DNA of 64,000 nt from positions 1 through 64,000 of IMG/VR virus record IMGVR_UViG_3300028615_000137, one strand, 5' to 3'. Position numbers and translations under genes: made by a program. Positions 15,108-49,059 of the stretch are shown in pieces (position 1 is the first letter of the stretch; each line of letters opens with the position of its first letter). A model generated the notes under the pieces. That model had not been told where the DNA came from, did not search any database, and saw nothing but the letters and a program-made list of their open reading frames with translations. This DNA is from a virus.

Positions 15108-15360
15108 TACGACTTTAGAAATAAGTGCTGTTGACGGCAAAATAATCATTAATCAAATAAGAAGCGGCATGTTCCGAGAATCATTTTGTTGTTTGGATCA
15201 AACTATCGGCAGTTTTATTAGAGCGTGCTCTAGCGGCGTTGTAAATTTTGGCAATAGAAATTTTAAAATAAAATTTACAGATGAAGAAATACAAAATATT
15301 TATGGCGGATTTTCAATAGAGAAAATAGTAAAGGTAGAGCGAGAAAATGACTTTTTATAA
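15094..15360 (+). CDS. unknown small protein (88 aa)
   Basis: Begins MAWDNTTLEISAVDGKIIIN; alternating hydrophobic pattern suggests a beta-rich domain. No motif seen. Overlaps the ThyA start by 14 bp, indicating coupling to it. Confidence 0.7.
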   Translation: MAWDNTTLEISAVDGKIIINQIRSGMFRESFCCLDQTIGSFIRACSSGVVNFGNRNFKIKFTDEEIQNIYGGFSIEKIVKVERENDFL

Positions 15361-16147
15361 TGAGTTGGTATATTTAAATCTTCTAGAAAAAATTCTAGTT
15401 AATGGAAGTGTAAAAAGCGATCGAACTGGTACTGGCACGAGAAGTCTCTTTGGTCAAACCATGCGCTTTGATTTGCGCGATAGTTTTCCGCTTTTGACTA
15501 CGAAAAAAATGTATTGGAAAGGTATAGTACACGAACTATTGTGGTTCCTTTCTGGCAGCACCAACATTGATTATTTAAAGCAAAATAAAGTCAATATTTG
15601 GAATGAATGGGCAGATGAAACGGGAGAATTGGGTCCTGTTTACGGCTTTCAATGGAGAAATTTCAACAATCAAAATGTTGATCAAATATCTGAATTGATA
15701 ACTTCTTTGAAAACTAACCCCGATTCCAGGCGACATATTGTTACTGCTTGGAATCCCGCACAAATACACGAAATGAATTTGCCACCATGTCACATGATGT
15801 TTCAATGTTATGTCGATAATGGCTATCTTTCTCTAATGATGTATCAAAGAAGTGCCGATATGTTCCTCGGAATGCCTTTTAACATCGCTAGTTACGCTTT
15901 GTTGACTCATATGATAGCACATGTATGTAATCTAAAGGCTGACAAATTAATTATCACAGTGGGCGATGCTCACATATATTCTAACCATATAGAACAATGT
16001 TACGAGCAGATCGGACGTGAAATGTATCTTGGTCCTACTTTGCAACTCAATTCTAATATAAAAGATATTTTTTGCTTTACTTTCGATCACATTATGCTAA
16101 AAAATTATAAGAGTCGTCCAAAACTTAAGGGAGAAATTGCAGTATGA
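15347..16147 (+). CDS. thyA: thymidylate synthase
   Basis: 266 aa, the normal length for bacterial ThyA (264 in E. coli). Signature parts are all present: SDRTGTGTRSLFG, FPLLTTKK, ELLWFLSGSTN, GPVYGFQWR, SRRHIVTAWNP, the catalytic Cys148 in LPPCHMMFQ, QRSADMFLGMPFNIASY and GDAHIYSNH. It methylates dUMP to dTMP with methylene-tetrahydrofolate. With the dCMP deaminase read from the other side of the divergent promoter it completes a short dTMP route. No dUTPase was found in the window. Confidence 0.97.
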   Translation: MTFYNELVYLNLLEKILVNGSVKSDRTGTGTRSLFGQTMRFDLRDSFPLLTTKKMYWKGIVHELLWFLSGSTNIDYLKQNKVNIWNEWADETGELGPVYGFQWRNFNNQNVDQISELITSLKTNPDSRRHIVTAWNPAQIHEMNLPPCHMMFQCYVDNGYLSLMMYQRSADMFLGMPFNIASYALLTHMIAHVCNLKADKLIITVGDAHIYSNHIEQCYEQIGREMYLGPTLQLNSNIKDIFCFTFDHIMLKNYKSRPKLKGEIAV

Positions 16148-16681: not shown

Positions 16682-17492
16682 GAATTCCGATTTAAGAATA
16701 AAGCTAGAAAATTATACAAAAAGTATAGCCAATAATCTAGCAGTATTCTCAGTTTTTTGGAAGAAAAACGGCGGGAAAAATGTTTGGTTGCTCAACCCAG
16801 CCTGGAAAAACTTCCACAAGGATTATTGGGGGGATAATTTAGTAGTATTTGCAGTAGTTTACAGTCAACAAGAAATAAATCTAGCCTTGAAAGAAGGTTA
16901 CACTTCTGTTATAAATTATTCTTTAATTCCATCTAAGGAAAATTTATCTTTTGAAGAGGCTTTAGATTTGGCTAGAAAATGTTCCTTGTGCAAAGAAAGC
17001 GGTCACGACCGCAGACGTTGCGAGTTACGCAACAAAGTAGAAAAGAATTCTCCAGACCCATGGCACGACTTGGAATGGAACGAGCATTTGGATGCTATGA
17101 AAATAGTCGCCGAAAATCCAAATGGTATGACTCTTGAAGAAATTGGAGCTACTTTGGGCATCACCAGAGAGCGTGTAAGACAAATTGAATATCAAGCGCT
17201 AGAAAAGTTGATCGTAGACGGGTTTGGTTATGATGTATCTGTAATGAATTCTATAAAAAAGAAGTACGAAAGTGGCAAAATTCCCGATACTGTCATGAGA
17301 GATTTACTAGACTGCACACAAGAAGATATTTCAACTAGATTAGACGGTATCGTGTCCCATTCTATAGACGGATTTTTCTTCAGATTTTTAGAATGCGAAA
17401 AATGTCAAGAAACTTTTGTTCGACTTTCTGGTCGCCAGAGATATTGCGAGATTTGTCGGCCAGAAATTAGAGACCGCAGGAAAATTTCATGA
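16605..17492 (+). CDS. sigma-region-4 protein with CCHC zinc knuckle (295 aa from ATG 16605)
   Basis: Residues 126-139 (CSLCKESGHDRRRC) form a CX2CX4HX4C zinc knuckle, rare outside eukaryotic and retroviral RNA-binding proteins. Residues 175-202 hold EIGATLGITRERVRQIE, a close match to the sigma-70 region 4.2 helix-turn-helix that binds the -35 element. Four cysteines near the end (CEKC, CEIC) make a zinc ribbon. Regions 2 and 3 are not seen, so it may be a modified sigma factor or a promoter-redirecting protein. The true start is uncertain: ATG 16605 overlaps the previous gene by 77 bp, and +1 frameshifting is an alternative. Confidence 0.78.
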   Translation: MFKSNSYTKTIENVEQINSLKLLNPENSDLRIKLENYTKSIANNLAVFSVFWKKNGGKNVWLLNPAWKNFHKDYWGDNLVVFAVVYSQQEINLALKEGYTSVINYSLIPSKENLSFEEALDLARKCSLCKESGHDRRRCELRNKVEKNSPDPWHDLEWNEHLDAMKIVAENPNGMTLEEIGATLGITRERVRQIEYQALEKLIVDGFGYDVSVMNSIKKKYESGKIPDTVMRDLLDCTQEDISTRLDGIVSHSIDGFFFRFLECEKCQETFVRLSGRQRYCEICRPEIRDRRKIS

Positions 17493-18112
17493 AAGTTATA
17501 AATCGTACTCATTACGATACGAGAAAACTTAGAAAAATATTCTGCGAAGTACATAATAGAACTGCCAAATATGAAGGCAAATTGCCTACCTGGCAGGACT
17601 TGAAGGTAGAAGTAGTTTACGGCAATTATACTGGAGACGCTTGGCTAAAAGGCGAACCAAGGCCAGAAATAGAAGTTAGAATACCCAAAAATGACGCTAG
17701 TTGTCGATGGCTGGCCATGTTATTCGATCATGAGTTGTTGCATACCTATGGGTATGATCACGACCGCATGGGTCCTATTAGGTGGCTTAACGAAGGCATC
17801 CTAACTAACTATGATTGGATTTATAAATTCTTTGATAAAGATTTGGTACCTGTAGGTAAAAGAAAGAAAGAAAAGAAGAAGGCTACTAAATTACAATTAC
17901 AATTGCAGAGACAAAAAAAGGTGCTAAAACGAGAAAAAGAATGGAAAAAGCGTTTAGAAAAAGCTGAAAAAGCTTGGTATAAAGCAGAAGAAACTTTAGA
18001 AAAAATAAAAAGACAGAAGAAATATTACGAAAAAGTTATCAAAGAGAGTAGAGAAAATGAACAAAGAAAAATTCAAGAATCTTGCAAGCAACATGACTGT
18101 CGGTCAAATTAA
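17489..18112 (+). CDS. SprT-like zinc metallopeptidase with coiled-coil tail (207 aa)
   Basis: HELLH at 81-85 with a further His91 (HELLHTYGYDH) gives the zinc-binding and catalytic site of SprT/Spartan-like and related peptidases. From about residue 125 the chain is a long, very basic coiled coil (KKRLEKAEKAWYKAEETLEK), possibly for nucleic acid or partner binding. It starts 4 bp inside the sigma-like gene. The target is unknown; the fold is often linked to DNA-bound proteins. Confidence 0.8.
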   Translation: MKVINRTHYDTRKLRKIFCEVHNRTAKYEGKLPTWQDLKVEVVYGNYTGDAWLKGEPRPEIEVRIPKNDASCRWLAMLFDHELLHTYGYDHDRMGPIRWLNEGILTNYDWIYKFFDKDLVPVGKRKKEKKKATKLQLQLQRQKKVLKREKEWKKRLEKAEKAWYKAEETLEKIKRQKKYYEKVIKESRENEQRKIQESCKQHDCRSN

Positions 18113-18278
18113 ATATTATATACAGAATGAAATTGGCGTTTTTCGCATAGCAAAAGTGAGTCGAAACCTTTTTACAGTTACTTGTAAGAGAAAAGATTCC
18201 GAAAAATTGAATATTTTCTCATTGATCTCTGCCGAAAATGAATACATAATTACTAATAGAGATGATTATGTGGCCTAA
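18057..18278 (+). CDS. unknown small protein (73 aa)
   Basis: ATG after GAGAAA, 56 bp inside the peptidase gene. MNKEKFKNLASNMTVGQIKY then beta-like segments (NLFTVTCKRKD). Unrecognised; reading frame is well kept after the overlap. Confidence 0.65.
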   Translation: MNKEKFKNLASNMTVGQIKYYIQNEIGVFRIAKVSRNLFTVTCKRKDSEKLNIFSLISAENEYIITNRDDYVA

Positions 18279-18483
18279 AGCAAAAGCGAAGAAATCTGAA
18301 CCAATTTACGTTAAAGTTCAGGTTATTGAACCGATTGTTGAAACGAAGCTTCTGGAAAATGCTGAAAAGGATACCAAAGTGGTAGAATATCATTATGGAT
18401 ACGAGAAATACCGACAAATGCAAGAAGAAGTTGAGTGCGGCAAAATCCGATTGGAAAGAAGCAAAAAATTGGTTTCTCTATGA
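18262..18483 (+). CDS. unknown small protein (73 aa)
   Basis: Two possible starts (ATG 18262, ATG 18268). Sequence with KAKAKKSEPIYVKVQVIEPI, then VVEYHYGYEKYRQMQEEVEC. The last 29 codons overlap the next frame; since that frame also looks real, a long overlap or a frameshift is possible. Confidence 0.55.
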   Translation: MIMWPKAKAKKSEPIYVKVQVIEPIVETKLLENAEKDTKVVEYHYGYEKYRQMQEEVECGKIRLERSKKLVSL

Positions 18484-25231: not shown

Positions 25232-26182
25232 ATGTCTGATAATATGGATAACAGGACTCTGCTAGAAAAGGCGGATTTGGCCCTATCAGATCTGACGGGG
25301 ACAGCGGGTGCTATGGTCCCTGCACAGGCGAAAAAGTTCATTCGACTGTTGATTCGTCAGAGTGAAATCTTGGGAATGGCGCAAGTTAAGCCGATGGCTA
25401 GCTTCAAACAGCGTCTTGAGAAGGTTCGTTTCGGTAGTCGCATTCTTCGTGCTGGCACAGAAGCAACTGCTTTGTCGGCCGGCGACCGCTCGAAGGTCGA
25501 TCTTAGTCAAGTTGAGTTGGATGCCCAGCTCTTCAAGGCGCAGGTTGATCTGAACAACGAAGTCTTAGAGGATTCGATAGAACAGCGCATGTTGCTTCAG
25601 ACGACCATGGATATCATGGGTGACGCGGTTTCGCGTGATATGGACGAGGTTATTATTAACGGCGATACTAGTTCGGGTGACACATTCTTGGCCAAATTCG
25701 ACGGCATGCTCGCCGCGGCTACTTCTAACGTGGTCGCTTTGGGCCCAACTTCGCTAGATACGCCTGTTCTTAAGGCAATGCTTAAGACAATGCCAAAGGA
25801 ATTCATTCGTAATAAGAAAAAGCTTCGTTACCTCACGGCTATGGATGCTGAGACTGATTACCGCGATACGCTTAGTGAGCGAGCGACGGTGGCTGGCGAT
25901 AAGTTCCTGCTCAACGACGCCCCCGTTATGTACTCGGGCGTGCCCATTCAAGATGTTCCCATGTTTCCCGAAGATCTGAATCTTCACGGTGGGAGCAACG
26001 AAACTAACGTGATTCTTACGGACCCCAAGAACATTTGTGTTGGTGTGTGGCGCAAGATTCAGGTTGAAACTGATAAGGATGTCGAGAGTGGCGTTCTTAA
26101 GGTCGTTACGACCATGCGTTTCGATTTCAAGTATGTGCACGAGCCGGCTGTTGTCAAGGCTACGGGCATTACGCTTAGCTAA
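25232..26182 (+). CDS. major capsid protein, HK97 fold (316 aa)
   Basis: Typical tailed-phage capsid sequence: RFGSRILRAGTEATALSAGD (E-loop area), MGDAVSRDMDEVIINGDTSS (spine helix end) and RYLTAMDAETDYRDTL, with GVPIQDVPMF near the end. A strong ribosome binding site (AAGGAAATAAAC) precedes it. Codon use is more GC-ending than in neighbours, as seen for highly expressed genes. A strong terminator follows at once, so it is probably the most abundant message. Confidence 0.88.
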   Translation: MSDNMDNRTLLEKADLALSDLTGTAGAMVPAQAKKFIRLLIRQSEILGMAQVKPMASFKQRLEKVRFGSRILRAGTEATALSAGDRSKVDLSQVELDAQLFKAQVDLNNEVLEDSIEQRMLLQTTMDIMGDAVSRDMDEVIINGDTSSGDTFLAKFDGMLAAATSNVVALGPTSLDTPVLKAMLKTMPKEFIRNKKKLRYLTAMDAETDYRDTLSERATVAGDKFLLNDAPVMYSGVPIQDVPMFPEDLNLHGGSNETNVILTDPKNICVGVWRKIQVETDKDVESGVLKVVTTMRFDFKYVHEPAVVKATGITLS

Positions 26183-27165: not shown

Positions 27166-28752
27166 ATGGGTCGAACTTTTATACGTCAAGTGTCTCAGAT
27201 CCAAGGCTCTGACACCTATGATGATACTTTAGCGGCTGGTTCTACACTAGAATCTAACGCCGCCGACTTGGAAGCGGATCTTAACGGTCTTCGTTCACAA
27301 GTTGAAAAAATTATTGATAATACCGGTAACTGGTATGACGCGCTCGCTACGGTCAATTCGAAGCAGCGTTCTTTGAAAGATCTTAATACGGATCTAGACG
27401 ACATCGAAGAAAAGCGACTTATCTGTCCAGTTCAGGTTCTGACTAATATTACTGTTCCCGCTTCGCAGAATTATGTCGTCCTCTCACAGGCCGGCGCAGA
27501 AACTCCTTCTGATGTGGCTGCTGTAGATGGTGGCACAGCTTTGGGTGCCATCGTTGCTACTTTGGCTGGCGATGTCGGCACAGCCGCTACTACCGAAGTT
27601 GCCGGCTCCAATGCTCTATCGCCCAAGAACTTGGTAATTATTCGCGATGCAACTACCAAGGATGCAATCACGAGTTCAAACGGTTACGAGATTTTTGGTT
27701 TAATTCAAGCCGAAAACGGTGTTATCGACGGCGATGCTTTCAACGACATAGATCACCAAGTCCAAATTTCTTTCGTAGAAAATGATGGCTCTGACGATCT
27801 AACCCTTGTTGCGGCTGGCGACATCGAGAATAAGGTAATCGAATATGTCTACGGCAAGCGTATTACTCTTGATACGTTGCCTGAGCAATGTTCGTTCCCG
27901 CCGGTTCAGTTCTCTGACCAAGTTGCTTCTGTTGACGTTACTTTGGATAACGCAATTGATAACCAGGGCGCCACTGTGGCTACACAAGATACCAATATTT
28001 CCATCAAGCTAGATACTGCTGGCGTTTACTGGGAGTGGCAAGACGATCTTTCGGCTAGCCTTTTCCGTGTGACCGAAGGCTCCGCTGGCGGAACTAGCGA
28101 CGTCACTATTGGTTCTGACGTCGACACCTACAATAACAATGCTATCGACGTCGATTTCGACAACGGAATTTCCGTTGATACTGGTGCTGCTGGTACTACA
28201 ATTAACATTGGAGTCACTGCCAATCAGATCGATGCTGGCGGTGTTCTTAGTATTCTTTCTGGTGGTGGCGCCGATCTTAGTTTGGCAGCTGCTCTAGAAT
28301 TGAATCTTACAGATAGCTATCGTGCGGGTTCTACTTGGTCTTTGGCCGATGGTATTGCTCTTGCGAATAGTTCGGCTGAATGGTCAGCTTTCGAAACGGC
28401 ATTTGGCGAGGTTTCTCTTCTCAATGCTATCGAACAAGCTAAGACTAGTTCATCTGCTGCCAAGTACGTTGCTGTATTGACTGCCGCTGTTCCTGCTGAC
28501 ACTAACGTTACAGGTGCAGGCGGTTCACCAAACTTAGACGCACAGCTTGGCGACTATAGCGGTGTTACCTTTGTCGATGATGTCGACGTTTTCCTGAACG
28601 GCGTATTGCTTCGCAATGGTGCAAATGCCGCGGCAAATAACGATGTCTACCCTGGCGATACCCCGGCCGACGGCGATCTTAAATTCGAGTTTGCTGTTAC
28701 CAACGCCGGTGATACTCCTGATGTCATTACCATGATGATTCGCGGTGGCTAA
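27166..28752 (+). CDS. large Asp/Thr/Ala-rich virion protein (528 aa)
   Basis: Beta-rich, low in Lys, with many GxDV and NT repeats, typical of extended virion proteins. The C-terminal part has DVDVFLNGVLLRNGANAAAN, a pattern found in fibre and decoration proteins. It has its own promoter, strong codon bias and terminator, so it is likely abundant, perhaps a head decoration or fibre. The best-spaced ATG after AAAGGGGAG opens only ATG AGT TAA; the real start lies 11 bp further on. Confidence 0.72.
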   Translation: MGRTFIRQVSQIQGSDTYDDTLAAGSTLESNAADLEADLNGLRSQVEKIIDNTGNWYDALATVNSKQRSLKDLNTDLDDIEEKRLICPVQVLTNITVPASQNYVVLSQAGAETPSDVAAVDGGTALGAIVATLAGDVGTAATTEVAGSNALSPKNLVIIRDATTKDAITSSNGYEIFGLIQAENGVIDGDAFNDIDHQVQISFVENDGSDDLTLVAAGDIENKVIEYVYGKRITLDTLPEQCSFPPVQFSDQVASVDVTLDNAIDNQGATVATQDTNISIKLDTAGVYWEWQDDLSASLFRVTEGSAGGTSDVTIGSDVDTYNNNAIDVDFDNGISVDTGAAGTTINIGVTANQIDAGGVLSILSGGGADLSLAAALELNLTDSYRAGSTWSLADGIALANSSAEWSAFETAFGEVSLLNAIEQAKTSSSAAKYVAVLTAAVPADTNVTGAGGSPNLDAQLGDYSGVTFVDDVDVFLNGVLLRNGANAAANNDVYPGDTPADGDLKFEFAVTNAGDTPDVITMMIRGG

Positions 28753-34153: not shown

Positions 34154-36808
34154 ATGGGTTTAATGAAAATCGATCAAACGGGATTACCAGCCGGTACTCC
34201 TGGCGAATCTCGTTCTGATGGTCTGGATACCGGAGCGCAAGTTACTCTAACTAGCACTACACCCGGCACTACTCATGAATTCAGATTTTTGTGGCATCCT
34301 ACTGCTGATACAGACGCAGTTTCTAGTTTAGTGCAAACTGGCAGCCCTGAAGTGTGGACATTTAGCCCTACTGCGGGCGTGTACGGAAGCTACCTAATTG
34401 AACTAATCGTAGACGAAGGCTTGGCAACAGAAAGTCGCGAACGAAGAATTTTTGGCATAAGAACGCCAAATCGCGGTCTGTTAATTCCTGCCTGGAACGA
34501 AGGGGCAGACCCCAACGGGTCTTTAGTAAATTTGGGTCCGCTAGTCGTCAAAGCTTCTACCATGAACGAAAACGGTAATGCAACCGGATGGTGGTTAGCT
34601 TTTGAAGAGGCTTTATTAGATTTAGATGATGCTGGCGCGGGTGGCGGTGGAACCGACATCGAAGTTTTGGATGAAGGTGGAAGTCTGACTTCTGCTCTTG
34701 AATCTATAGATTTTGTTGGTACTGGTGTCGAAGCGACGAACGTAGGTGGGGCAGTTACGGTAACTGTAAATCTGCCAGCGGGTTCTCCAATAGAAGCGTT
34801 GGACGAAGATGTTAGTTTGAACGCCGATATCACTTCGCTAAATTTTAAAGGTGAAGGTGTAACGGCAACTAACATAGGTCAAGATATAACAGTAACCGTT
34901 CCTGGCGTTGAAGTCACTCAAAGAAATTTACACGATCTTACTCACGATCCAGAAGGTCTATGGCAATTTAGCCCAAATCCAGATTTAGTAGCTGATTTAC
35001 CTTGGCGTTCTGATGTCAGTCCGAATGATCACGGCGGATTTGGAAACGTGGCAGGAGCGTTAAGAGTAACAAAAGGTCCTGCTCCAAATACTTCCGCATT
35101 GTTTCTAGACGGCGGAACTAGATTAGTAAATTCTGCTGGTGGTACTGAAATTGACCCTCCTTCTGTGGGTGTTGCAATTTCGGTAGAAGCTCTAATCTTT
35201 TTGAACACCTTTGTAGGAACCGGCGAATTTGCTCATATTTTTGAATTTGGTTCTTCTGGCGAGACTTTAAATGACAATGTTCTGTATGGATTACAACTTT
35301 GGCAGAATAACAGATTGATAGCATACTGGGAAACGGGTAATGGTACTCAAAATCAGTTAGTTCCGGCCGATTTGTATGCCCTACCGATTGGAGAATGGAT
35401 ACACGTAGCATTCACAATGAGTGCTGGTGGCGTTGGCAATACTACAGTTAGATTGTATGTCAACGGCGAAATGATAGCCGAAGATACTTCCGCCAACCAT
35501 TCGGACGGTGGGGTAAACGGCAAACTATATATCGGCGGAAGTGTAGAGTCTGGAGCGGATTTCTTTAGCGGCTGCTTGTCGTCTCTCAAAGTAATTTATG
35601 GCACAGAATTAACTCCGCAACAGGTAGCTGACGAAGCTAGATTTACCTTACCCGAACAAATAGGTTTGGCGGATGGATTTGCTCCGCGTCTTCATGATAC
35701 TACTCACAATCCTGTCGGTTTATGGCAATTGGATGGTAATCTTCTGGATAGCTCGGGCAATGGCTTAACATTAGATTCTGTCTCAGGCTCCGAACAATAT
35801 GGTTCTGCCGTTTCGAGTAAAAATAGCGCTGCTTATTTTGACGGTTCGACTATTATTTCTCGTTCAATTCACGATTCTATTTTAGCTTTAGATGAAGATG
35901 TTACATTAGAATTATTGTGCTTTCCGGTAGAATTTCAATCGGGCGGTTCTAATCCCGTTGTAGCAAATTTTGGTGCAGTGGGCGAAACTGCCGCTGATAA
36001 CATCCTATACCAAATCTATTTTCAAGCTGCTGCTCCTGGAAATAGACTTAGAGGATTCTGGGAAGCCGGAGCGGGAGGAAACGTTGCCGTATCGCCAGAT
36101 ATGCCAAGAATATTAGCTCCTGGTCGGTGGCATCATATAGCTTTTACCAGAGAAAATGGCCTAGGTAAAATTTATCACAATGGTAAAAAGCTCAAAGAAA
36201 CTGCTGGTACAGAGCCAATAGGCGAAGGTACCAATAGTGTGATGACTTTGGGAGGTTCTGGCGAGACTGGATATGGAAACTTTAAAGGCTTCCTAAGTTC
36301 TGTAAAAGTTATTCCCTTTGCTCTAAACCAAGAACAAATTCTCAAAGAAGTAGAAAGAACTCTGCCAGAAGTTGTATCAAGAACTCCCGTATTACAATTC
36401 GGCGACGACCATAGTATTCAAACGGATATTAGACTTAGACAGACTAGCTTAACTTCTCCGCAAACTGCTCAGACGATGAATTTCAATGTTTCTGAAGATG
36501 GTTGGTATAGAATCGGTTGGTTAATACAACGAAGAATGGATACCACTACAGGACAACTAGAATATTCCATAGACGTAGACGATACGACCAATATTTTCAA
36601 AGCTCCCGGCGGAGAAGATAGAGCTTTGATCGAAGTATCGGACGTCGATAATAGATTATTCGATAGTGGGTTTTCTACAGTATTTTTGACTGCTGGCGCG
36701 CATGTTCTTAAAATTAAGTGGCAAGTCACTTCTGGAGCTACAGCAACTATTTACGAATCTAGGTTGGAAGTATTCAGAACTACTGCCGTTGAACAGGTTA
36801 TTTCCTAA
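34154..36808 (+). CDS. virion protein with two LamG-like domains (884 aa)
   Basis: Two concanavalin/LamG-type domains: about residues 255-500 and 515-740. Each starts HDxTHxPxGLWQ, includes YGLQLWQNNRLIAYWETGNG or its partner, the EWIHVAFTM / RWHHIAFTR core and a KLYIGGSVESG strand, and ends SSLKVI. N-terminal units (VLDEGGSLTSALESIDFVGT and EALDEDVSLNADITSLNFKG) repeat and recur in the 40414 product. LamG folds bind glycans, so receptor binding is a fair inference. Confidence 0.78.
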   Translation: MGLMKIDQTGLPAGTPGESRSDGLDTGAQVTLTSTTPGTTHEFRFLWHPTADTDAVSSLVQTGSPEVWTFSPTAGVYGSYLIELIVDEGLATESRERRIFGIRTPNRGLLIPAWNEGADPNGSLVNLGPLVVKASTMNENGNATGWWLAFEEALLDLDDAGAGGGGTDIEVLDEGGSLTSALESIDFVGTGVEATNVGGAVTVTVNLPAGSPIEALDEDVSLNADITSLNFKGEGVTATNIGQDITVTVPGVEVTQRNLHDLTHDPEGLWQFSPNPDLVADLPWRSDVSPNDHGGFGNVAGALRVTKGPAPNTSALFLDGGTRLVNSAGGTEIDPPSVGVAISVEALIFLNTFVGTGEFAHIFEFGSSGETLNDNVLYGLQLWQNNRLIAYWETGNGTQNQLVPADLYALPIGEWIHVAFTMSAGGVGNTTVRLYVNGEMIAEDTSANHSDGGVNGKLYIGGSVESGADFFSGCLSSLKVIYGTELTPQQVADEARFTLPEQIGLADGFAPRLHDTTHNPVGLWQLDGNLLDSSGNGLTLDSVSGSEQYGSAVSSKNSAAYFDGSTIISRSIHDSILALDEDVTLELLCFPVEFQSGGSNPVVANFGAVGETAADNILYQIYFQAAAPGNRLRGFWEAGAGGNVAVSPDMPRILAPGRWHHIAFTRENGLGKIYHNGKKLKETAGTEPIGEGTNSVMTLGGSGETGYGNFKGFLSSVKVIPFALNQEQILKEVERTLPEVVSRTPVLQFGDDHSIQTDIRLRQTSLTSPQTAQTMNFNVSEDGWYRIGWLIQRRMDTTTGQLEYSIDVDDTTNIFKAPGGEDRALIEVSDVDNRLFDSGFSTVFLTAGAHVLKIKWQVTSGATATIYESRLEVFRTTAVEQVIS

Positions 36809-38667
36809 TGACGACTAAATATACATATTCCAAAACAAGCGATACTGCTAATGGCTATGTAGATATCCTAGCATTGGGACAGCAAATACAATCATTAGAA
36901 TTGTCGGGTGTCTATCTCGGTATAAATATCATAAACGATGATATTGAGATACTTTTCAATCAAGCATTAACTGCTGGAGAACAAACGCAATTAGATTCGG
37001 TGGTTAGTACCCACGACGGTCAAGCAATACAAGGCTTGGGAACAAATAAAAATACCAGAAATCCTAATGTCAATGACGATACTACTAAGGGATTTAGAGT
37101 AGGTTCCCATTGGTATAATACTCAAGCGTTATCTGCATGGATTTGTTTAGACGCTTCCCAAGGTGCTGCAATCTGGAAAGAAATTAGCACATCTTATATT
37201 GGCGATTTGGGCGATCAACTTACGTCCCATTTAGAAGATGAAAATAATCCACATTCTGTAAATTTGAATGATATTGGACCATTTAATTTAGCCAATTTAA
37301 ATGCTAATATCAACGATGCTAATTTAGATGATAGCGACAGCCCAAGAACTCCTACTTCACATTCTACTTCGCATGAAGCGGATGGAAGTGACGAAATAGA
37401 CGGCGATAAATTAGATATTGATTTTGTACCCCAAAATTATGTTCCTAATACCGAACCAAGCGAAGTTGATAGTTCAAATCATCTTACTGCTCATTTAAAG
37501 GGTATCGATGAACTCATTAATCAAAGCGATGTTACTGGCCCTGAAAATTCTACCGATAATGCGGTTGTTAGATTTGATGGAACAGGTGGTAAGCAAATAC
37601 AGGATTCCACAGTTACTATCGACGACGCTGGAAATTTGTCGGTTCCAGGAACTGTCAATGGTCGCGATATTTCTGCTGACGGCACAAATCTTGATACTCA
37701 TATCGCTGACAATAGCAATCCTCACGGGATTACTCTCGCTACCTTGGAACATTGTACTCTTAGTGAGCTTAACGCCCTAATAGACAATGCAAATTTGGAC
37801 GATTTAAGCGAATCTAGAACCCCTACTTCACATTCTACTTCACATGAAGCCGATGGAAGCGACGAATTAGTTTTACAAAATTTAAGCAGTGGTGGCGCTT
37901 CAAGTGGTGAACATCCTGTTGCAGATGGAGCTGGCGGTTGGAATTTGGTTCCAGTTAGTCAGTACCAATTAAACTCTGAGAAAGGTCAAGCGAACGGGTA
38001 TGCAAGTCTAGATGGTAGTGCCGAAATCGCTGACGTTACACATGGCGCCCGCGGCGGAGGTTCCTTGCATACAACTGCTACCGATTCTGCAAATGGCTTT
38101 ATGTCGGCTGCCGACAAAGCCAAGCTTGATGGTATTGCAGACAATGCCGAGGTAGACAACAAAGATGCAAAAGTAAGTTCTAATGACACAAGCCCGGGAT
38201 TTTTGTCAACTAAGCTTGTCGCGGGTGCAAATATAACTCTGACGGAACAAAACGACGGAGGTAACGAAACATTAGAAATTTCCGCCGCTTCTGGCGGAGG
38301 CGGTAGTGTAATAACACAATCTGCTGCAACAAATGAGATTTCCACAGGTTCGGAAAGTTTCGTTTCGATGCCAGACATGAGCCAAACGCCAGGAGCCGGC
38401 AATTTTAAAATTGAATTCTCTTCAACTATTTGGAATACGAGCAATGACGGTAGTATTTATATAGCAATTTTTGTAGACGGTTCAAAAATTGCACATTCGG
38501 AAAGAATGCAACGATTAGATGCTGCTTATTACCAAGGCGTTGGAAATATACAAACACAAGCTTATGTCACAGTTAGTGCCGATCAAGTCGTAGAAATACG
38601 CTGGAAGAAGGGTCCTTTTGGCACTGCTTATGCGAATAATAGATCTATGATTCTTACTAAGGTTTAA
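36808..38667 (+). CDS. modular fibre-like protein (619 aa)
   Basis: Starts on the stop of the gene before. It contains SHSTSHEADGSDEIDGDKLD with the NYVPNTEPSEV and HLTAHLKGIDEL end, the same module as in the 29906 product, and a shortened copy near residue 345. GPENSTDNAVVRFDGTGG also matches that protein. The middle has a TADKAKLDGI-like unit common in fibres of many phages. The C-terminal 120 residues form a separate beta domain. Confidence 0.75.
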   Translation: MTTKYTYSKTSDTANGYVDILALGQQIQSLELSGVYLGINIINDDIEILFNQALTAGEQTQLDSVVSTHDGQAIQGLGTNKNTRNPNVNDDTTKGFRVGSHWYNTQALSAWICLDASQGAAIWKEISTSYIGDLGDQLTSHLEDENNPHSVNLNDIGPFNLANLNANINDANLDDSDSPRTPTSHSTSHEADGSDEIDGDKLDIDFVPQNYVPNTEPSEVDSSNHLTAHLKGIDELINQSDVTGPENSTDNAVVRFDGTGGKQIQDSTVTIDDAGNLSVPGTVNGRDISADGTNLDTHIADNSNPHGITLATLEHCTLSELNALIDNANLDDLSESRTPTSHSTSHEADGSDELVLQNLSSGGASSGEHPVADGAGGWNLVPVSQYQLNSEKGQANGYASLDGSAEIADVTHGARGGGSLHTTATDSANGFMSAADKAKLDGIADNAEVDNKDAKVSSNDTSPGFLSTKLVAGANITLTEQNDGGNETLEISAASGGGGSVITQSAATNEISTGSESFVSMPDMSQTPGAGNFKIEFSSTIWNTSNDGSIYIAIFVDGSKIAHSERMQRLDAAYYQGVGNIQTQAYVTVSADQVVEIRWKKGPFGTAYANNRSMILTKV

Positions 38668-38669
38668 AG

Positions 38670-39536
38670 ATGGCTGCTACAAAATATTCCTATTCTATTT
38701 CGAACGATTTTCCAGATTCGCTGGTCAATCCAGACAAACTAAAGTCTGAGATTGTTGCAAGTTCAATAAGCATCGCCTTAGATTATATAGAAACAAACGG
38801 AGATGTTTGCGACATTTGGTTTAAGGATTCTCTTCCGCCTGCCGATAAGTCCACTCTAGACAATAATACCACTTCGCCAGCGGGTGGTTTAATAGCAGCG
38901 CATGATAACACGCCTAACGAAAAAGAAACTTCTCCAGTTTTAATTGAAGAAGAGCACGTAAAAACGGGGGGTCACTATCAAGCTAAAGGTTGGAAAGATA
39001 ATATTCCTGCTAGCGTCGGTTGGCATGAGTTTCCCGACATTTCGTTTCCATATGGAGTAAACATACTCTCAGCCGAGGCTTATTGTTCTCCTGAAAACGA
39101 TGGAGATCATTTTGAATTTCAAATTGCTCCTGACACAATAGTTGGAAACATCACGGTGGATGTTTCTGCTTCTGACACAATATTTATAGTTTCGGATTCT
39201 GTAATAGAAAATGTCTATGTAGGAGTTCATGTAAAATTAGATGATGGCACCAATATCGACGATTGCGGCGAAATTATTGCAATAGATAAGAATAATAATC
39301 AAATTACTGTCGAAACTGCTGCCGTCAATTCATTTACCGCCGCTACTCCTACAAATGTAAAAATGACCATTTTTCAAGCGAAAAATATTCACTTGAAAAA
39401 TGGTCACAGAATTATTCTAGGCGAATCGAAAATAGGTGCAAGCTACGTCCCTGCAAATACTGTTATGAGATTTCGATATTATAACAGTGAAGCCGCGGCC
39501 AAATCTTTCGATTTCTTCTTCGAACTTCTTTACTAA
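38670..39536 (+). CDS. fibre-module protein (288 aa)
   Basis: Begins MAATKYSYSISNDFPDSLVN, close to the beginning of the 36808 product (MTTKYTYSKTSDTANGYVDI), so the two share an N-terminal attachment part. The C-terminal half is beta-rich (ITVDVSASDTIFIVSDSVIE). Ends on the patatin start. Confidence 0.7.
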   Translation: MAATKYSYSISNDFPDSLVNPDKLKSEIVASSISIALDYIETNGDVCDIWFKDSLPPADKSTLDNNTTSPAGGLIAAHDNTPNEKETSPVLIEEEHVKTGGHYQAKGWKDNIPASVGWHEFPDISFPYGVNILSAEAYCSPENDGDHFEFQIAPDTIVGNITVDVSASDTIFIVSDSVIENVYVGVHVKLDDGTNIDDCGEIIAIDKNNNQITVETAAVNSFTAATPTNVKMTIFQAKNIHLKNGHRIILGESKIGASYVPANTVMRFRYYNSEAAAKSFDFFFELLY

Positions 39537-40405
39537 TGCGTGCTTTAGTACTAAGCGGCGGGGGCTCGAAAGGTCAATTCCAAGTAGGTGCGTTGAAGCA
39601 TTTACTTTATGATCTTGGCGAACAATACGACCTACTCTGCGGCGTTAGTGTTGGAGCTTTAGTCGCTTCTTTCTTGGCGCAATATCCTTTGGGTCAAGAA
39701 AAGCAAGCATATAAAGATCTAGAAGAATTATTTTCTGGCGTTGAAAATAAAGACATTTGGAAACGCTGGTTTCCCTTCGGAAAATTACACGGTCTGCCTT
39801 TAGATTTTTGGCCATTTTCTAAAATGAAAAAGTCTAGTTTTGTTAACAGCAAACCGCTACAAGAATTAGTCGGCAGCAAGTTAAACATAAAACGCATAAA
39901 AAAATCCGGTAGGCAATTGATTGTCGGTGCCGTCAACCTGAAAACTGGCGAATACAATACATTTGACCAAGAACATAGACCGTTATCTAAAGCTGTATTA
40001 GCTTCGTCTTCTTTCCCGGCGTTTTTCCTACCAGTCCTTATACAAAATGATTTGTGGACCGACGGCGGAATTAGAACTGTAACTCCGATTAAAGCAGCTA
40101 TCGATAACGGTGCGACAGAAATTGATATAATTATGTGTTCCCCGGAAAATGTTCAACAAAATTTTAAAAGAAGTCCGTCTGCTTTCGACGTAGCAATTCG
40201 CTCTATTGATATTATGATGGATCAAGTCATTGACGATGACCTAGATAAAGCTCTGTTGAACAATCAAATCGAAGGCAAGAAAAAAATAAAATTTAAAGTG
40301 ATTAGGCCAGATTTTCAGTTGAACGAAGATTCTCTAAATTTCAATCCTAAGGAAGCCAAAAAGCTACAACATTTAGGATACATGAAAGCCGTAGAAGTTA
40401 TCTAA
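39536..40405 (+). CDS. patatin-like phospholipase (289 aa)
   Basis: All patatin motifs are visible: the oxyanion loop GGGSKGQFQVG at 8-18, the nucleophile elbow GVSVG with Ser38, SSSFPAFF, and the catalytic DGG at 176-178. The enzyme hydrolyses acyl chains of lipids, with a Ser-Asp dyad. There is no signal peptide. Its start overlaps the upstream fibre gene (TAATG) and it is followed by another fibre gene, so it is made with the virion. It might be carried in the particle to open a lipid envelope or membrane, or help lysis. CBASS-type host defences also use patatins, so a link to defence is possible but unproven. Confidence 0.88.
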   Translation: MRALVLSGGGSKGQFQVGALKHLLYDLGEQYDLLCGVSVGALVASFLAQYPLGQEKQAYKDLEELFSGVENKDIWKRWFPFGKLHGLPLDFWPFSKMKKSSFVNSKPLQELVGSKLNIKRIKKSGRQLIVGAVNLKTGEYNTFDQEHRPLSKAVLASSSFPAFFLPVLIQNDLWTDGGIRTVTPIKAAIDNGATEIDIIMCSPENVQQNFKRSPSAFDVAIRSIDIMMDQVIDDDLDKALLNNQIEGKKKIKFKVIRPDFQLNEDSLNFNPKEAKKLQHLGYMKAVEVI

Positions 40406-40413
40406 GGTGAAAA

Positions 40414-42393
40414 ATGAGCAATACCGTCACAGAAGATCTTACTTCGCAAGTAGATGGTGTAACTACAACATTCACCACTTCACAGACTTTCATAGCCGAT
40501 AGTCTAGAAGTACATCTAAACGGCAATAGATTAAGAGCTGGTGTAGATTTCGAAGAAGATCCCGGTCTATCTTCTTTTACTTTTATTGCTACTCCGCTCA
40601 CGGCTCCATTTGCTACAGATTTTCTAGCGGTTCAATATGAGATTGTTTCAGTCGGAGGCGGGGGCAGCGTAGGAGTCTTAGACGAAGGTGTCCCCATAGG
40701 AAACTTCGACTCTTTAGATTTTAAGGGAGTAGGCGTTACAGCTTTGCCCGATGGGACTACAGCTTGTATTTTCATTCCACCGCCAGAATTCCTCTCTCAT
40801 TGGAATACGTCGGATGGCTCAAACGGAGATCAATTCGTAACTAACGATATTACTAGCAAATTGGTCCACGTTAGCACCCCTTCTGGCGGCGAAGGTAGTC
40901 CATTTAAAACTAATGGTTGGGAAAATACGAACAGACAAGGTCACCTACCCCAAATTGTAACCATCGAAACACCTGGTGATACAACCGGGTTTGGTGGCGA
41001 TAGTACGATGACTGTCGATGTATACGAAGCCGACGGTTCAACATTAATAGAAAGTTTTACTACTCCTGCTATAACTGAGAACGGCACATTTTCTTCTGGA
41101 AATATCACCGTTACCATTTCAAACTATGGGCCAGATTCATCTAGATTCAAAGCCAAGGCTGTAGTAGAAGTAGACATAGATTTAGCCTTTACTGGAATAG
41201 GTCAAGACGGTGGAAGATATCATATCGAAGTTACACACACTACAGACTCGACTACAGACGGAAACGGACCGTTTGTATACATCCAACCTGACATTTTCCT
41301 TGACACTAACCAAACTACGCCTAGCATTAACGGAACTACAAGCATTGCAGAAAGAGCAGGTTTCGTTGTTACAAAACATTTGTCGGGGCTCGAATACTAT
41401 ACAATCGGAAGTCAATTCACTGTCGACGTCACTGATATCGACGACTTCAACGAAAATTCTCACAGAATAGATGAAAGTTTAGTTATAGACGGCAGCGAAT
41501 ATGGTTTGCCTAGTTTAAGTCATTCGCCATTTGGAGTAGGTTCAGCTAATTTCATAGGTTGGAGCAATAATCATGACCAAAACGATGTTGACTATAGCAA
41601 AGAAGATTGGACGATCAACGCCGCTAATTTCCGCTATATTGGTCCTAGTGGAAATATATCTGCCCTACCTCGCGATCCTTGGGCTAATGGTAGCTCTTCA
41701 AATAGTCCAAACAATAATATCCTGGTAGATACATATGGCATACAAAGTACAGACACTTACGAACCATTTGTTGACGAAGCAAGAAGAGAATTGGACGATT
41801 TTTCTGGTGCCGGGTCGTTTGATAGCGTGGGTTCGCTTTTGGCAGGCGAGGCTATGGTTTTCAATGATCAACTCATTTCGCCGCAATCGTCGACTTACGT
41901 TAGAAGCGATGGACCCAATTCACCAAATACCGATTGGTCTACTTTTGATCCTGGCATCAATCCCAACTATACTGGCTTGGTTGTTCCGGTAAAATATAAT
42001 AGAAGATTTACACAAGCCAGCGGAATAAATATTCCAAGTTTCACCATGGTTTTTAGTGGTACTTTCGTCGGAGGCAACGCACTTGCTGATTTGATCTCTA
42101 ACGACTTGGAAATTCTAATCTATAGAATTGCTATACCAAGTGGAACACCTGGCGTGTTTGGTCCGCCGCCCGGCAATACTAGACCGCTTAGGCTCCACGA
42201 ACCATTTAACTTTGCCCTGTATGACGACGGTCTTACAATTCCAGGATCTGGCATACGTCTAGGAGCTTCTTCGGGTAACACCATTGAAGCTACTTTTGGC
42301 ACCGGAACTCCAGCCGATACAGGGTTCTATATGTGCCTCTTTATAAACAACTCAACTATCAAAATTGGTAGTATTTCTGTAACATTAAACTAA
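40414..42393 (+). CDS. fibre-like protein (659 aa)
   Basis: The N-terminus has VDGVTTTFTTSQTFIADSLE and HLNGNRLRAGVDF, a common fibre head-binding pattern, then VGVLDEGVPIGNFDSLDFKG, the unit shared with the 34154 product. The large beta-rich remainder (about 500 residues) has no catalytic motif. It could be a receptor-binding tip. Confidence 0.72.
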   Translation: MSNTVTEDLTSQVDGVTTTFTTSQTFIADSLEVHLNGNRLRAGVDFEEDPGLSSFTFIATPLTAPFATDFLAVQYEIVSVGGGGSVGVLDEGVPIGNFDSLDFKGVGVTALPDGTTACIFIPPPEFLSHWNTSDGSNGDQFVTNDITSKLVHVSTPSGGEGSPFKTNGWENTNRQGHLPQIVTIETPGDTTGFGGDSTMTVDVYEADGSTLIESFTTPAITENGTFSSGNITVTISNYGPDSSRFKAKAVVEVDIDLAFTGIGQDGGRYHIEVTHTTDSTTDGNGPFVYIQPDIFLDTNQTTPSINGTTSIAERAGFVVTKHLSGLEYYTIGSQFTVDVTDIDDFNENSHRIDESLVIDGSEYGLPSLSHSPFGVGSANFIGWSNNHDQNDVDYSKEDWTINAANFRYIGPSGNISALPRDPWANGSSSNSPNNNILVDTYGIQSTDTYEPFVDEARRELDDFSGAGSFDSVGSLLAGEAMVFNDQLISPQSSTYVRSDGPNSPNTDWSTFDPGINPNYTGLVVPVKYNRRFTQASGINIPSFTMVFSGTFVGGNALADLISNDLEILIYRIAIPSGTPGVFGPPPGNTRPLRLHEPFNFALYDDGLTIPGSGIRLGASSGNTIEATFGTGTPADTGFYMCLFINNSTIKIGSISVTLN

Positions 42394-42395
42394 TA

Positions 42396-42548
42396 ATGTA
42401 TTCTAAGCCTATAAAAATAAAAAGCAAAGACAACAACAAGGTAACTGTAAGTTTAAGAACTTCGGAAAATTCCGTTATAGTTGTAGAAGTTAATCGTAAG
42501 GATTTAGAAAAGGCGATTAGCGAATATAGAGCTGAATTGGATAGCTAA
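42396..42548 (+). CDS. small protein in fibre module (50 aa)
   Basis: MYSKPIKIKSKDNNKVTVSL, two to three strands followed by a helix (KDLEKAISEYRAELDS). ATG lies 2 bp after the previous stop; its stop shares bases with the next start (TAATG). May be a fibre assembly chaperone, by position only. Confidence 0.6.
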   Translation: MYSKPIKIKSKDNNKVTVSLRTSENSVIVVEVNRKDLEKAISEYRAELDS

Positions 42549-43237
42549 TGGGTTATTCTGCTTTAGAAAGAACAAAGATTGCAGAAAAGTTTCTACAAAC
42601 AGGAACTTTTGATAGCGATCCTCGAACTCAAGGCTATGAGTCAACTAACTTAGCTGAATTATCATTATACGGTTCGAAAATTTGGCTCCAAGAAGAACTG
42701 CTTAGAAATAATCCAGCTCCCAACATTGCTACTGCCAACTCTCTTACCGCGTCTGGTGGAAACTTAGACGGGGTGGTAGCAAATTACACCGGGGCTGAAG
42801 CGAGAAAATTGACCGCTCTTCCCGGTATCGATTTCACGTGGGTTGTTCTAGACGACCCCGACAATCCAAATTTCCAAAATAGATTGAAAAATTGGATCCA
42901 ACCTACAATGATTCCACAATCGAATGGTCTGCCGTCGTTTGGATTTGCCACAAGATTGTACGACGGGGATCCAAATTCTGGTGGTACTGAAATTCTGACC
43001 AGTGATGGTCAAACTGGCATCGGGCTAAATGCTGCAAGCGCTTGGTTCTTTCAACCGGCTGGTGGTGTTCTTGGAATTTCAGACGATTTTTACAGTGAAA
43101 CTGGAATAGACTCAAATACTTTTGAGCCTTGGATTGAAGGATTTCAATACATTGGAAGAACTGCCCTAGATTCAATAACAACAGAAGATACCGCTATTGT
43201 GGTAGCATCGGGTATAGACCCAGATTTGGTGTGTTAA
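42548..43237 (+). CDS. unknown virion-module protein (229 aa)
   Basis: MGYSALERTKIAEKFLQTGT, then a mixed alpha/beta chain with many Gly/Pro turns (GATRLYDGD-like FATRLYDGDPNSGGTEIL). It closes the fibre insertion just before the connector gene. Not recognised. Confidence 0.65.
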   Translation: MGYSALERTKIAEKFLQTGTFDSDPRTQGYESTNLAELSLYGSKIWLQEELLRNNPAPNIATANSLTASGGNLDGVVANYTGAEARKLTALPGIDFTWVVLDDPDNPNFQNRLKNWIQPTMIPQSNGLPSFGFATRLYDGDPNSGGTEILTSDGQTGIGLNAASAWFFQPAGGVLGISDDFYSETGIDSNTFEPWIEGFQYIGRTALDSITTEDTAIVVASGIDPDLVC

Positions 43238-43238
43238 A

Positions 43239-44366
43239 ATGGCCAGTATTAGCAGATTGCAGACGTCTGATTGCGATAATCCAATTTTAGATGTTTTTAT
43301 TACGCAAAATGGGCAAAAAATAGACGTTTCTAGTCTCGAATTTCAGATTTTCGAGAATGTCTCAAATCCAGGTTCGCCAGTGCAGGTTTTCCCGGCTACT
43401 GCTGGCGCTCGAGAAGCTGTTGATTTAAACCTATGCCCCGTGGGGCAGAAGCTGTCTACCGGCCGTTACGTGGCCAACTGGACGGTTCCAGTGACCGAAT
43501 TAATAGGACCACACATAATTAAGTGGTTTTTCAAAGTCACCCCTGCGTCAAACGAGAATGTTTTTAGCGAAGAATTTGAAGTTCTTGCCGAAGGCGTGGG
43601 CGCAGGAGACATTGGTTATACCACGATTCAATGTCTCCGTGATGAAGGGGTATCTGAAAGTTTGTACAGTGATGATTTCCTTACTAGGCGAATAGCGCTG
43701 GTGACAGAACAGATCGAAATGTACACGGGTAGATTTTTTACCCCACGAACATTGACGTTTCGCGTCGATGGCAAAGACCATCCAGAAATCTTGCTATATC
43801 ATCCAATTATCGAAATTTCTGATGTAAAAATTATCCACGAAAATCCGTTCAATCCGAATTCCTCTTTGGTTAACTTGGATAATCTGGTTATTTACAACCG
43901 CCATTTGACCCAAGGATTGAGGCAACCAGACGACCGCAACAACCCAAGAATTTCATTTGAAACGAGTTTTCATTATCACCATTTTGTTAATGAACTCTAC
44001 GAACACGATTTTTACATTTCTCATTTTCCCAGAGGAAAACAAAACATCGAAATTACTGGAGTTTTTGGATATACAGACCCAGACGGCACCGCTTACGGCA
44101 AGACTCCAGAGCTAATAAAACACGTGGCAAATTTGATGGTCATACGGGAGCTAAATTCATTAGCTGATACAGGGGCTCGTGACGATGCAATTTGGTATCG
44201 ACGTCGTACCACAGAATTCCGCACGCGAGACCAGTCTGTAAAATATAGTCCGCTGAACGCCGGTGAGCTTGCAAGAAATATGCCATACACAGCTTTTACA
44301 GGCGATCCTGAGATAGACCGAATTTTGTTAAGATTTTCCAGACTACCAGCTTTCGGGGCTGCGTAA
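43239..44366 (+). CDS. head-tail connector protein (375 aa)
   Basis: The first 120 residues look like an Ig-like beta-sandwich. From about residue 130 (IQCLRDEGVSESLYSDDFLT) follows the helical pattern of gp6/gp15-type connectors: EQIEMYTGRFFTPRTLTFRV and VFGYTDPDGTAYGKTPELIK. Connectors bind below the portal and close the DNA channel. The fusion of an Ig-like domain to the connector is unusual. Confidence 0.7.
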   Translation: MASISRLQTSDCDNPILDVFITQNGQKIDVSSLEFQIFENVSNPGSPVQVFPATAGAREAVDLNLCPVGQKLSTGRYVANWTVPVTELIGPHIIKWFFKVTPASNENVFSEEFEVLAEGVGAGDIGYTTIQCLRDEGVSESLYSDDFLTRRIALVTEQIEMYTGRFFTPRTLTFRVDGKDHPEILLYHPIIEISDVKIIHENPFNPNSSLVNLDNLVIYNRHLTQGLRQPDDRNNPRISFETSFHYHHFVNELYEHDFYISHFPRGKQNIEITGVFGYTDPDGTAYGKTPELIKHVANLMVIRELNSLADTGARDDAIWYRRRTTEFRTRDQSVKYSPLNAGELARNMPYTAFTGDPEIDRILLRFSRLPAFGAA

Positions 44367-46836: not shown

Positions 46837-49059
46837 ATGAGTCAAGAATTACTCAGTAGTAAAGTTGTCGTGGTTGAAGAACAGCCGCGAGTGCGCTCGA
46901 TTCAGGGCGTGCAAACATCTATCGCCGCATTCGTTGGCGTGACCGAAAGGGGTCCGCTTGGTGAAGCCACGCTACTCACTTCGTTTGACGAATATCGCGC
47001 TGTCTTCGGCGGTTATACCACTGATAGCGACGTTGCAACGGCAGTAAGCAGTTTTTTCGAAGAAGGCGGAAATTTCTGTTACGTAATCCGTACAGTGCAC
47101 TACACCGATCCTTCGAATCCGAATTCCAAAACTTCTGTCAAAGCAGGTACTACACTCCAAACGGCTGCCGCTGGTGCCACAGCCGGTGTTGTTCTTGGCA
47201 CGAACACAGAGCCTTTCAACTTCGAAGGCAACAATCAACTAGATATTGATGTCGACGGCGCTGGTACTGAAAACGTCGTTTTCACCGCCACCAGTGCAAG
47301 TCGTACGAGTGGAAACGCAGAAACTTTTGCTCTATCTAACGGCGAAACTCTTACTGTTGATATCGACGGTACAGGTGTTCAGACAGTCGAATTCCTCACA
47401 GGCGAATTCGTTGATATAAGCAACGCCACTGCACAAGAAGTTGCCAACGTAATCAATGCCAAGCTCACGGGAGCATATTCGCTAGATTCGGGCGGTAACG
47501 TGGTTATCGCTTCTGATACTTTGGGCACAGACTCCAGTGTCGATGTTACTGGCGGTTCGGCAAACGCAGCGCTCGGGTTTACTACCGGTATAATCAGCGG
47601 TACGGGCGATGTTGGTGATATCACGGCAGTTACGGTCGCCGAAATCAAGGCGCACGTTGAAGCGGGGGTTAGTGGTTCCAGTGGCGTAACAGTTACAGAC
47701 GTTGGCGGAGCAGTTCAAATTGCTTCGAATACGACGGGTCCTAGTAGCACGATTCAAGTACTGGCTTCTTCGAGCGCTGACACCATTCTGGGTATAGACA
47801 ACGCTGTGCATTCCGGCACTTCTGGCACTCCCGTCGATACACTCGATGTAGACGGCAAAACTGACGGTGCTTATGCTAACAGCTTGAGCGTTGAGGTTAC
47901 GGCAGCCACTTCGGGCGTCTCAACCGAGTTCAATCTTTATGTCCTTGAAGACGGCGTGATTGTCGAAAATTTCCCCAATCTTACCATGGTGGATGGAGAA
48001 GCTCGTTATGTCGAGAGCATCGTCAATGCAGACAGCAATCTTATAGAAGTTACCGACTTGGATGCAGGAGTCGCTAATCAGCGCCCCGCCAATGCCACTA
48101 CGCCGCTTACTGGTGGTGATGATGGTCTTGTTGGTCTTACCGATGCCGATTTCATTGGAGATTCTACGGGCGAGACTGGTATCAAGGCACTGGATAACGT
48201 TCAGAACGTTAACATTCTCTGTGTTCCTGGGCAGTCAACGGCTGCTATTTACACTGCGATGATCAACTATTGCGAAACTACTCGTGATATGAGCATGTTT
48301 CCAATCCTCGATCCTCCTGCTGACCAAAGCTATAGCGAGATTGTTACATTCTTCAATAGTGCAGGTTTGGCAGGTCTTAGTGAATTTGGCGCATTTTACT
48401 GGCCGCGAGTTAAGGTTGTAAATCCTGCTCCTGCTGTTTTTGGCGATGTTGCTAACATTAATGTCAATCCCTCAGGTCTGTTGGCTGGTCTTTACGCAAG
48501 AGTTGATGGTTCGCGCCCTGGTGGCGTTTACATTCCTCCCGCTGGAATCGAAAATGGGCAACTTCGTAGTGCGGTTGGTCTAGAGACTGATGATGTTTTG
48601 GACGAAGCCAAGCGCGATTTTGTTGCTCCGAATCGAATCAACATCATTACAACTTATCCTGGTGCTCCAATTTTCGTTGATGGCAGCTATGTGCTAAAGG
48701 GAAATGGTAATTTCCCGTTCATTTCACAGCGCAGAGGTGCAATCTTCATTGAGCAGTCGATTAAGCAGGGCATCGAATTTGCTCGTCACCAAAACAATAA
48801 TGCCAAACTTCGCCGAGAAGTTGAGCGGACTGTTCGCGGATTCTTGCTTGTTCAAATGAACAACGGAGCCTTTTCGACGACAGATCCGAGCACAGCATTC
48901 TTCGTCGCATTCAACGATGCGCTTAATCCACCTTCGGAAGTTTCTGCTGGTCGACTCAACGGTCGGGTTGGCTTGGCTTTCAACACACCGGCTGTTTGGA
49001 TTATTGTCCGGTTTAGCAAAGATACTAGGGCTCTTGAAGCGGAACTTCAACAGAGCTAA
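46837..49059 (+). CDS. tail sheath protein (740 aa)
   Basis: N-terminus RSIQGVQTSIAAFVGVTERG and C-terminus YVLKGNGNFPFISQRRGAIF, QGIEFARHQNNNAKLRREVE, SAGRLNGRVGLAFNTPAVWI are diagnostic for contractile sheaths. The protein is long (usual 370-500 aa in small myoviruses) because of an inserted region at about residues 95-340 made of repeated units (ATAQEVANVINAKLTGAYSL) that resemble flagellin hook IN motifs and would decorate the outside. Codon use is that of a highly expressed gene. Confidence 0.93.
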   Translation: MSQELLSSKVVVVEEQPRVRSIQGVQTSIAAFVGVTERGPLGEATLLTSFDEYRAVFGGYTTDSDVATAVSSFFEEGGNFCYVIRTVHYTDPSNPNSKTSVKAGTTLQTAAAGATAGVVLGTNTEPFNFEGNNQLDIDVDGAGTENVVFTATSASRTSGNAETFALSNGETLTVDIDGTGVQTVEFLTGEFVDISNATAQEVANVINAKLTGAYSLDSGGNVVIASDTLGTDSSVDVTGGSANAALGFTTGIISGTGDVGDITAVTVAEIKAHVEAGVSGSSGVTVTDVGGAVQIASNTTGPSSTIQVLASSSADTILGIDNAVHSGTSGTPVDTLDVDGKTDGAYANSLSVEVTAATSGVSTEFNLYVLEDGVIVENFPNLTMVDGEARYVESIVNADSNLIEVTDLDAGVANQRPANATTPLTGGDDGLVGLTDADFIGDSTGETGIKALDNVQNVNILCVPGQSTAAIYTAMINYCETTRDMSMFPILDPPADQSYSEIVTFFNSAGLAGLSEFGAFYWPRVKVVNPAPAVFGDVANINVNPSGLLAGLYARVDGSRPGGVYIPPAGIENGQLRSAVGLETDDVLDEAKRDFVAPNRINIITTYPGAPIFVDGSYVLKGNGNFPFISQRRGAIFIEQSIKQGIEFARHQNNNAKLRREVERTVRGFLLVQMNNGAFSTTDPSTAFFVAFNDALNPPSEVSAGRLNGRVGLAFNTPAVWIIVRFSKDTRALEAELQQS

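Follow-up and report, generated by a model that had tools for sequence, protein, structure and literature searches.

The window analyzed in the present study, a stretch of 64,000 nucleotides, derives from a virus record of 106,349 bp that belongs to a contractile-tailed phage. Its structural genes are arranged in the order portal (20128), protease (23072), major capsid protein, head-tail adaptor, tail sheath, tape measure (50563), and baseplate J (57330). A patatin-like gene and its neighbors are listed in Table 1. The initial annotation had placed this gene inside a fibre gene cluster. Fibre-like genes do flank the patatin; however, the cluster is bordered by the major capsid gene and the head-tail adaptor gene and is not at the usual site of tail fibres, which is 3' of the baseplate J gene. 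Due to this position, the fibre genes may encode head, neck, or tail appendages. The window also contains phage-encoded IMP dehydrogenase/GMP reductase and thymidylate synthase genes (10534-11556 and 15347-16147). Further along the record (66937-67785; L093:2937-3785), a gene with FFCHG...YCCSTG segments appeared caspase/CHAT-like by eye and had no match in PADLOC or Pfam.

Table 1. Patatin gene, its motifs, and neighboring structural genes in the window.
Feature	Position	Strand	Evidence
Major capsid protein, upstream border of the variable block	25232..26182	+	phrog_1623 virion structural protein (head and packaging, E=8e-89) and gene order
528-aa fibre-block protein	27166..28752	+	Up to 50% in common with patatin-bearing jumbo phages, core head/tail genes unmatched
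884-aa protein with two Laminin_G_3 (ConA-like) domains	34154..36808	+	Domains and virion structural PHROG matches
Fibre-like structural protein	36808..38667	+	Weak PHROG tail fibre matches
Fibre-like protein overlapping the patatin start (TAATG)	38670..39536	+	N-terminal domain also present in fibre-like genes of jumbo phages with a patatin
Stand-alone patatin (PNPLA) acyl hydrolase, 289 aa (predicted)	39536..40405	+	PF01734, E=3.3e-29; AlphaFold2 pLDDT 90.7
Oxyanion/anion-binding motif GGGSKG, residues 8-13	39557..39574	+	Sequence; G8-G10 in 81/82 family members
Catalytic Ser38 codon in GVSVG, nucleophile elbow	39647..39649	+	Ser in 80/82 family members; DSSP
Asp176-Gly-Gly codons (catalytic Asp176, 40061-40063)	40061..40069	+	Asp in 82/82 family members
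659-aa protein directly 3' of the patatin	40414..42393	+	N-terminal ~80 aa form the DLTSQVDG domain
229-aa protein between the fibre block and adaptor	42548..43237	+	phrog_33494, function unknown
Head-tail adaptor, downstream border of the variable block	43239..44366	+	phrog_442 connector; conserved in 34 loci
Tail sheath (contractile tail)	46837..49059	+	phrog_23 and phrog_17610

The start codon of the patatin overlaps the stop codon of the preceding fibre-like gene, and 8 bp separate its end from the next gene. Translational coupling within a structural/fibre module, as initially proposed, is therefore visible in the sequence. These flanks leave no space for a separate promoter immediately in front of the patatin, and matches to promoters and terminators around the gene were at the background level. 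A strong hairpin with approximately 18 paired positions is located at 39363-39407 inside the preceding gene, approximately 130 bp before the patatin start. The region around it (39345-39425) had a z-score of -6.3 against shuffled sequences, and, on the minus strand, a T-run follows the hairpin.

The patatin product matched the Pfam profile over its full length (positions 1-191 of 191; 102.9 bits against a cut-off of 27.7), which excludes a chance ORF, and no PHROG family matched it. The AlphaFold2 model (pTM 0.90) showed a complete patatin fold, in which Ser38 occupies the nucleophile elbow between a strand (33-36) and a helix (39-47) assigned by DSSP. A PDB search with this model returned 31 matches at E<=0.001, every one a patatin-type phospholipase; the top matches were CapV, PlpD, CapE, and plant patatin. 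We looked for a hydrophobic N-terminal segment or signal peptide and found none; the first strand begins at the start of the protein. The earlier description of an intact Ser-Asp patatin without a signal peptide was thus borne out. The absence of a signal peptide fits a virion protein or a cytoplasmic enzyme alike, and no virion-binding domain was found in the patatin. The protein is predicted to be a soluble acyl hydrolase with phospholipase A/lysophospholipase chemistry, which would depend on the Ser38-Asp176 dyad.

The interval between the capsid and adaptor genes spans 17 kb in the window, compared with 0.4 kb to approximately 8 kb in relatives identified through their capsid proteins. This range of sizes indicates a hypervariable accessory block, which is packed with genes for fibre-like and lectin-like proteins; in relatives, the block also carries genes for homing endonuclease-like and other enzymes. 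None of the 76 records reached via sheath or capsid similarity (72 of which were relatives by the major capsid protein) contained a patatin. The patatin-free capsid relatives first suggested that the gene was a singleton, which was overturned by relatives found through the adaptor. Among 68 further records reached in this manner, two carried a patatin, namely, L105 (8838-9716; 42% identical to the window copy) and L115 (8823-9710; 41%). In both, a fibre-like or lectin-like gene is followed by the patatin, a short DLTSQVDG gene, and the adaptor, such that the patatin is the second gene before the adaptor. The search for patatins at the same place in relatives, which the initial annotation had proposed, was thus positive. 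The DLTSQVDG domain of the protein encoded 3' of the window patatin recurs directly before the adaptor in L017, L031, L105, and L115. Overall, two of the 144 records in the window's own phage group, many of which are fragments, contained a patatin. Since most relatives in this group lack the gene, it is dispensable there.

Other ester hydrolases were detected in the capsid-adaptor block of relatives. L025 encodes an alpha/beta-hydrolase lipase (17463-18374; PF02089/PF01674) with a lipoprotein-like signal two genes before the adaptor, and the same block of a close relative encodes a SASA-type acetylesterase domain (L018:14561-15193), for which only profile positions 77-221 were matched and which may be frameshifted upstream. 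Among 14 blocks, one lipase genome (L025, with L026 as an apparent near copy) and one possibly truncated SASA gene are only suggestive of a general ester hydrolase slot. Signal or lipoprotein-like peptides in block proteins (L025:17463 and L115:7285) indicate that probable non-virion proteins are encoded in the block as well.

A scan of viral contigs with the window patatin alone gave no match. The family was found using an alignment of the three patatins from the window, L105, and L115, which identified relatives in at least 97 viral contigs; 80 were kept (33-48% identical), many of them 100-530 kb in length. Among the 82 family proteins aligned, Ser38 and Asp176 were retained in every intact copy, and the two ORFs without Ser38 were missing that region; the conservation of the dyad was therefore upheld. 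The dN/dS ratio was 0.04-0.24 among the listed pairs with unsaturated synonymous change. These comparisons show that the predicted catalytic dyad is under purifying selection. Virion-associated lipases had initially been regarded as rare; the patatin is indeed sporadic among phages of the window's group, but large phages from metagenomes carry the family widely. Two patatin genes were close together in four contigs (L182, L187, L201, and L242), and a GIY-YIG-like gene lies between the two copies in L182. No fusion of a patatin to a structural domain was seen among the members examined, a result that does not extend to longer ORFs such as that of L225. INPHARED contained no close isolate; the best matches were 22-30% identical to the window protein and no closer to other family members. 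One INPHARED patatin, from Acinetobacter phage MD-2021a (L003, CAKLQH020000002.1), was surrounded by secA, fadJ, and other chromosomal genes and was rejected as seemingly a bacterial chromosome filed as a phage.

A tree that also included cellular and other patatins showed strong clustering of the phage copies (4 changes versus 45 in shuffles) when five genome-bin copies (L255-L259) were counted as a separate group. For the three of these five that were detailed, L255, L256, and L257, the nearest tree rows were phage copies. L256 is a phage contig as judged by its neighbors, while L255 and L257 sit among bacterial genes, and exchange with delta-proteobacterial or Myxococcota genomes is therefore likely.

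The gene neighborhood was similar across the family. Of 66 patatin loci, 62 had a same-strand upstream neighbor, with a median gap of 26 bp and 16 overlaps, and 59 had a same-strand downstream neighbor, with a median gap of 24 bp; the patatin records are related, and, thus, these counts are not independent. Among 20 records of 100 kb or more with a detected sheath, 19 had the sheath gene downstream of the patatin on the same strand within 31 kb, against 1.6 expected at random, although this is not a strict probability because the limit was chosen after seeing the data and the records are related. A sheath match was absent in 24 of the 50 records scanned. The records with both genes represent several structural gene sets that are unrelated to each other. 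Within the few genes that come after the patatin, one jumbo lineage encodes an Ad2-type head-tail adaptor, a sheath stabilizer-like protein, and the sheath. The 528-aa protein of the window and the N-terminal domains of the two fibre-like proteins upstream of the patatin (36808 and 38670) have counterparts in jumbo phages that carry a patatin and show no match to the capsid, adaptor, and sheath of the window in the stretches compared. Fibre genes in common between phages with non-matching core genes point to a mobile fibre-plus-patatin cassette. The upstream fibre N-terminal domain was also considered as a common partner gene and was not accepted because its profile, found at 14 of the 66 loci, was too weak to prove this. 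In several jumbo phages, a 302-aa family (L186:8982-9890 and relatives) is encoded directly upstream of the patatin; it appeared hydrolase-like by eye and had no Pfam or PHROG match.

On the basis of these sequence comparisons, we concluded that a conserved phage patatin family of the late structural module, without a PHROG match, is real, and that many large phages encode this conserved and apparently active acyl hydrolase within their structural module. We consider there to be a nearly even chance that the patatin is an active soluble enzyme that forms part of the particle or is attached to it, as a component of the fibre or neck apparatus, and that targets lipids of the host membrane at entry. 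Virion delivery is favored because of the coupling to fibre or neck genes, the missing signal peptide, and the joint movement with fibre cassettes. Its location in the structural module in relatives as well as in the window is a feature expected of a virion-associated enzyme. Under this reading, the patatin would be a late product, translated from an mRNA shared with the fibre and neck proteins, and, once part of the virion, may attack host membrane lipids during entry. The family presumably moves with fibre cassettes between contractile-tailed phages. Points against virion delivery are that neither a virion-binding domain nor, among the members examined, a structural fusion was found, that the gene is missing from most relatives in the window's group, and that the block also encodes probable non-virion proteins.

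The location in a structural operon and a soluble enzyme without a signal peptide are also consistent with a late lysis or egress enzyme, which would degrade the inner membrane from the cytoplasm and, after membrane damage, the outer membrane, thereby releasing progeny. A precedent exists in Wolbachia phage WO, whose patatin adjoins the tail module and was proposed to have a lytic role (PMC9203015). However, no holin-like neighbor was found, and, across the family, few neighbors had a hydrophobic N-terminal segment (upstream, 4 of 73; downstream, 2 of 69). Moreover, the candidate lysis genes of the record (L093, 3.9-7.8 kb) are approximately 28 kb from the patatin; these encode small transmembrane and coiled-coil proteins and a signal-peptide protein, which were recognized by eye and received no confirmation from Pfam. 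We regard a lysis role as possible, but on balance improbable. A cytoplasmic role in host lipid remodeling, counter-defense, or superinfection exclusion is rather unlikely in our estimation. The enzyme would in this case change lipids of the membrane or receptor in the course of infection, and the gene would lie beside the fibres because receptor-linked accessory genes gather there; its sporadic occurrence in the window's group (2/144 records), the homing endonuclease-like and other enzyme genes in the hypervariable block of relatives, and close cellular relatives in delta-proteobacterial and Myxococcota contigs agree with this. However, genes for lipid remodeling or exclusion are usually early or stand-alone, whereas the patatin is coupled to structural genes across many lineages.

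Two further explanations received little weight. Burkholderia prophage patatins have been called morons (PMC2920897), and the present gene may similarly benefit a lysogen or be neutral, with no role in the phage cycle. We consider this very unlikely since the coupling to structural genes is conserved in large phages and a non-exhaustive scan of proteins recognized no lysogeny gene. It is hardly credible that the patatin is a CBASS-type effector (CapV) acquired from a host to exclude other phages. CapV was among the best sequence matches and was the best PDB fold match, and PADLOC phospholipase effectors matched the patatin (E=4e-19). However, these PADLOC matches span only the catalytic part (residues 1-191) and not a full effector, the record has no match to a SMODS nucleotidyltransferase as the CD-NTase partner, and the neighbors of the patatin are structural genes. 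We rejected this assignment.

Virion enzymes that act on sugars and peptidoglycan are well known. The presence of the same family in at least 80 other, mostly unrelated large phages, most with a similar placement, suggests an overlooked tool against host membranes. It is conceivable, although somewhat short of an even chance, that virion-delivered phospholipases are widespread in large contractile-tailed phages, move with fibre cassettes, and are used to breach or remodel the membrane of the host as the genome enters. Since the structural modules of many large phages have a conserved patatin at a comparable position, the question of a virion phospholipase becomes directly testable. Furthermore, a named family without a PHROG profile match may be used in sequence and context surveys. 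A review treats virion lipases as occasional predictions that await validation (PMC5380687). In our literature search, no account of a conserved patatin family in fibre modules was encountered; most subscription papers were outside its coverage and novelty is not proven.

Patatins have been reported in other phages. The marine megaphage Mar_Mega_1 encodes a patatin-like phospholipase, which was treated as an auxiliary metabolic or virulence gene, and the parts of that report available to us described no synteny for it (PMC9723777). The patatins of Rhodothermus phage RM378 and huge phages also belong to large phages, but are only 23-30% identical to the window copy, and the RM378 gene is located near a DNA polymerase gene, unlike the structural context of the window. 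The patatin of Wolbachia phage WO is likewise beside a virion structural module (PMC9203015). However, it belongs to a putative lytic cassette with a holin-like gene, whereas the window copy has no holin and lies between fibre and head-tail genes; in view of its fibre-like neighbors and the few hydrophobic N-termini family-wide, we did not assign it to a cassette of the WO type. The catalytic domain of PlpD, a type V-d secreted patatin of Pseudomonas aeruginosa (5fqu, 5fya), is similar (23% identity, TM 0.69), but a type V-d autotransporter was rejected because the 289-aa window protein consists of the patatin domain only, without a signal peptide, POTRA domain, or beta-barrel. The best structural match was the catalytic domain of the CBASS phospholipase CapV (8zr9, 9kej; E about 6e-14); the phage patatin is shorter, has a structural-gene context, and no cyclic-nucleotide system was found in its record. 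Plant patatin (PF01734; 1oxw, 4pkb) has the fold, GGGxxG and GxSxG motifs, and DGG dyad in common with the phage protein. In contrast to plant-type patatins, the window copy is phage-encoded, compact, and located in a fibre/neck module, and its clade has its own C-terminal DSLDF-type segment, unlike the PF01734 reference patatins.
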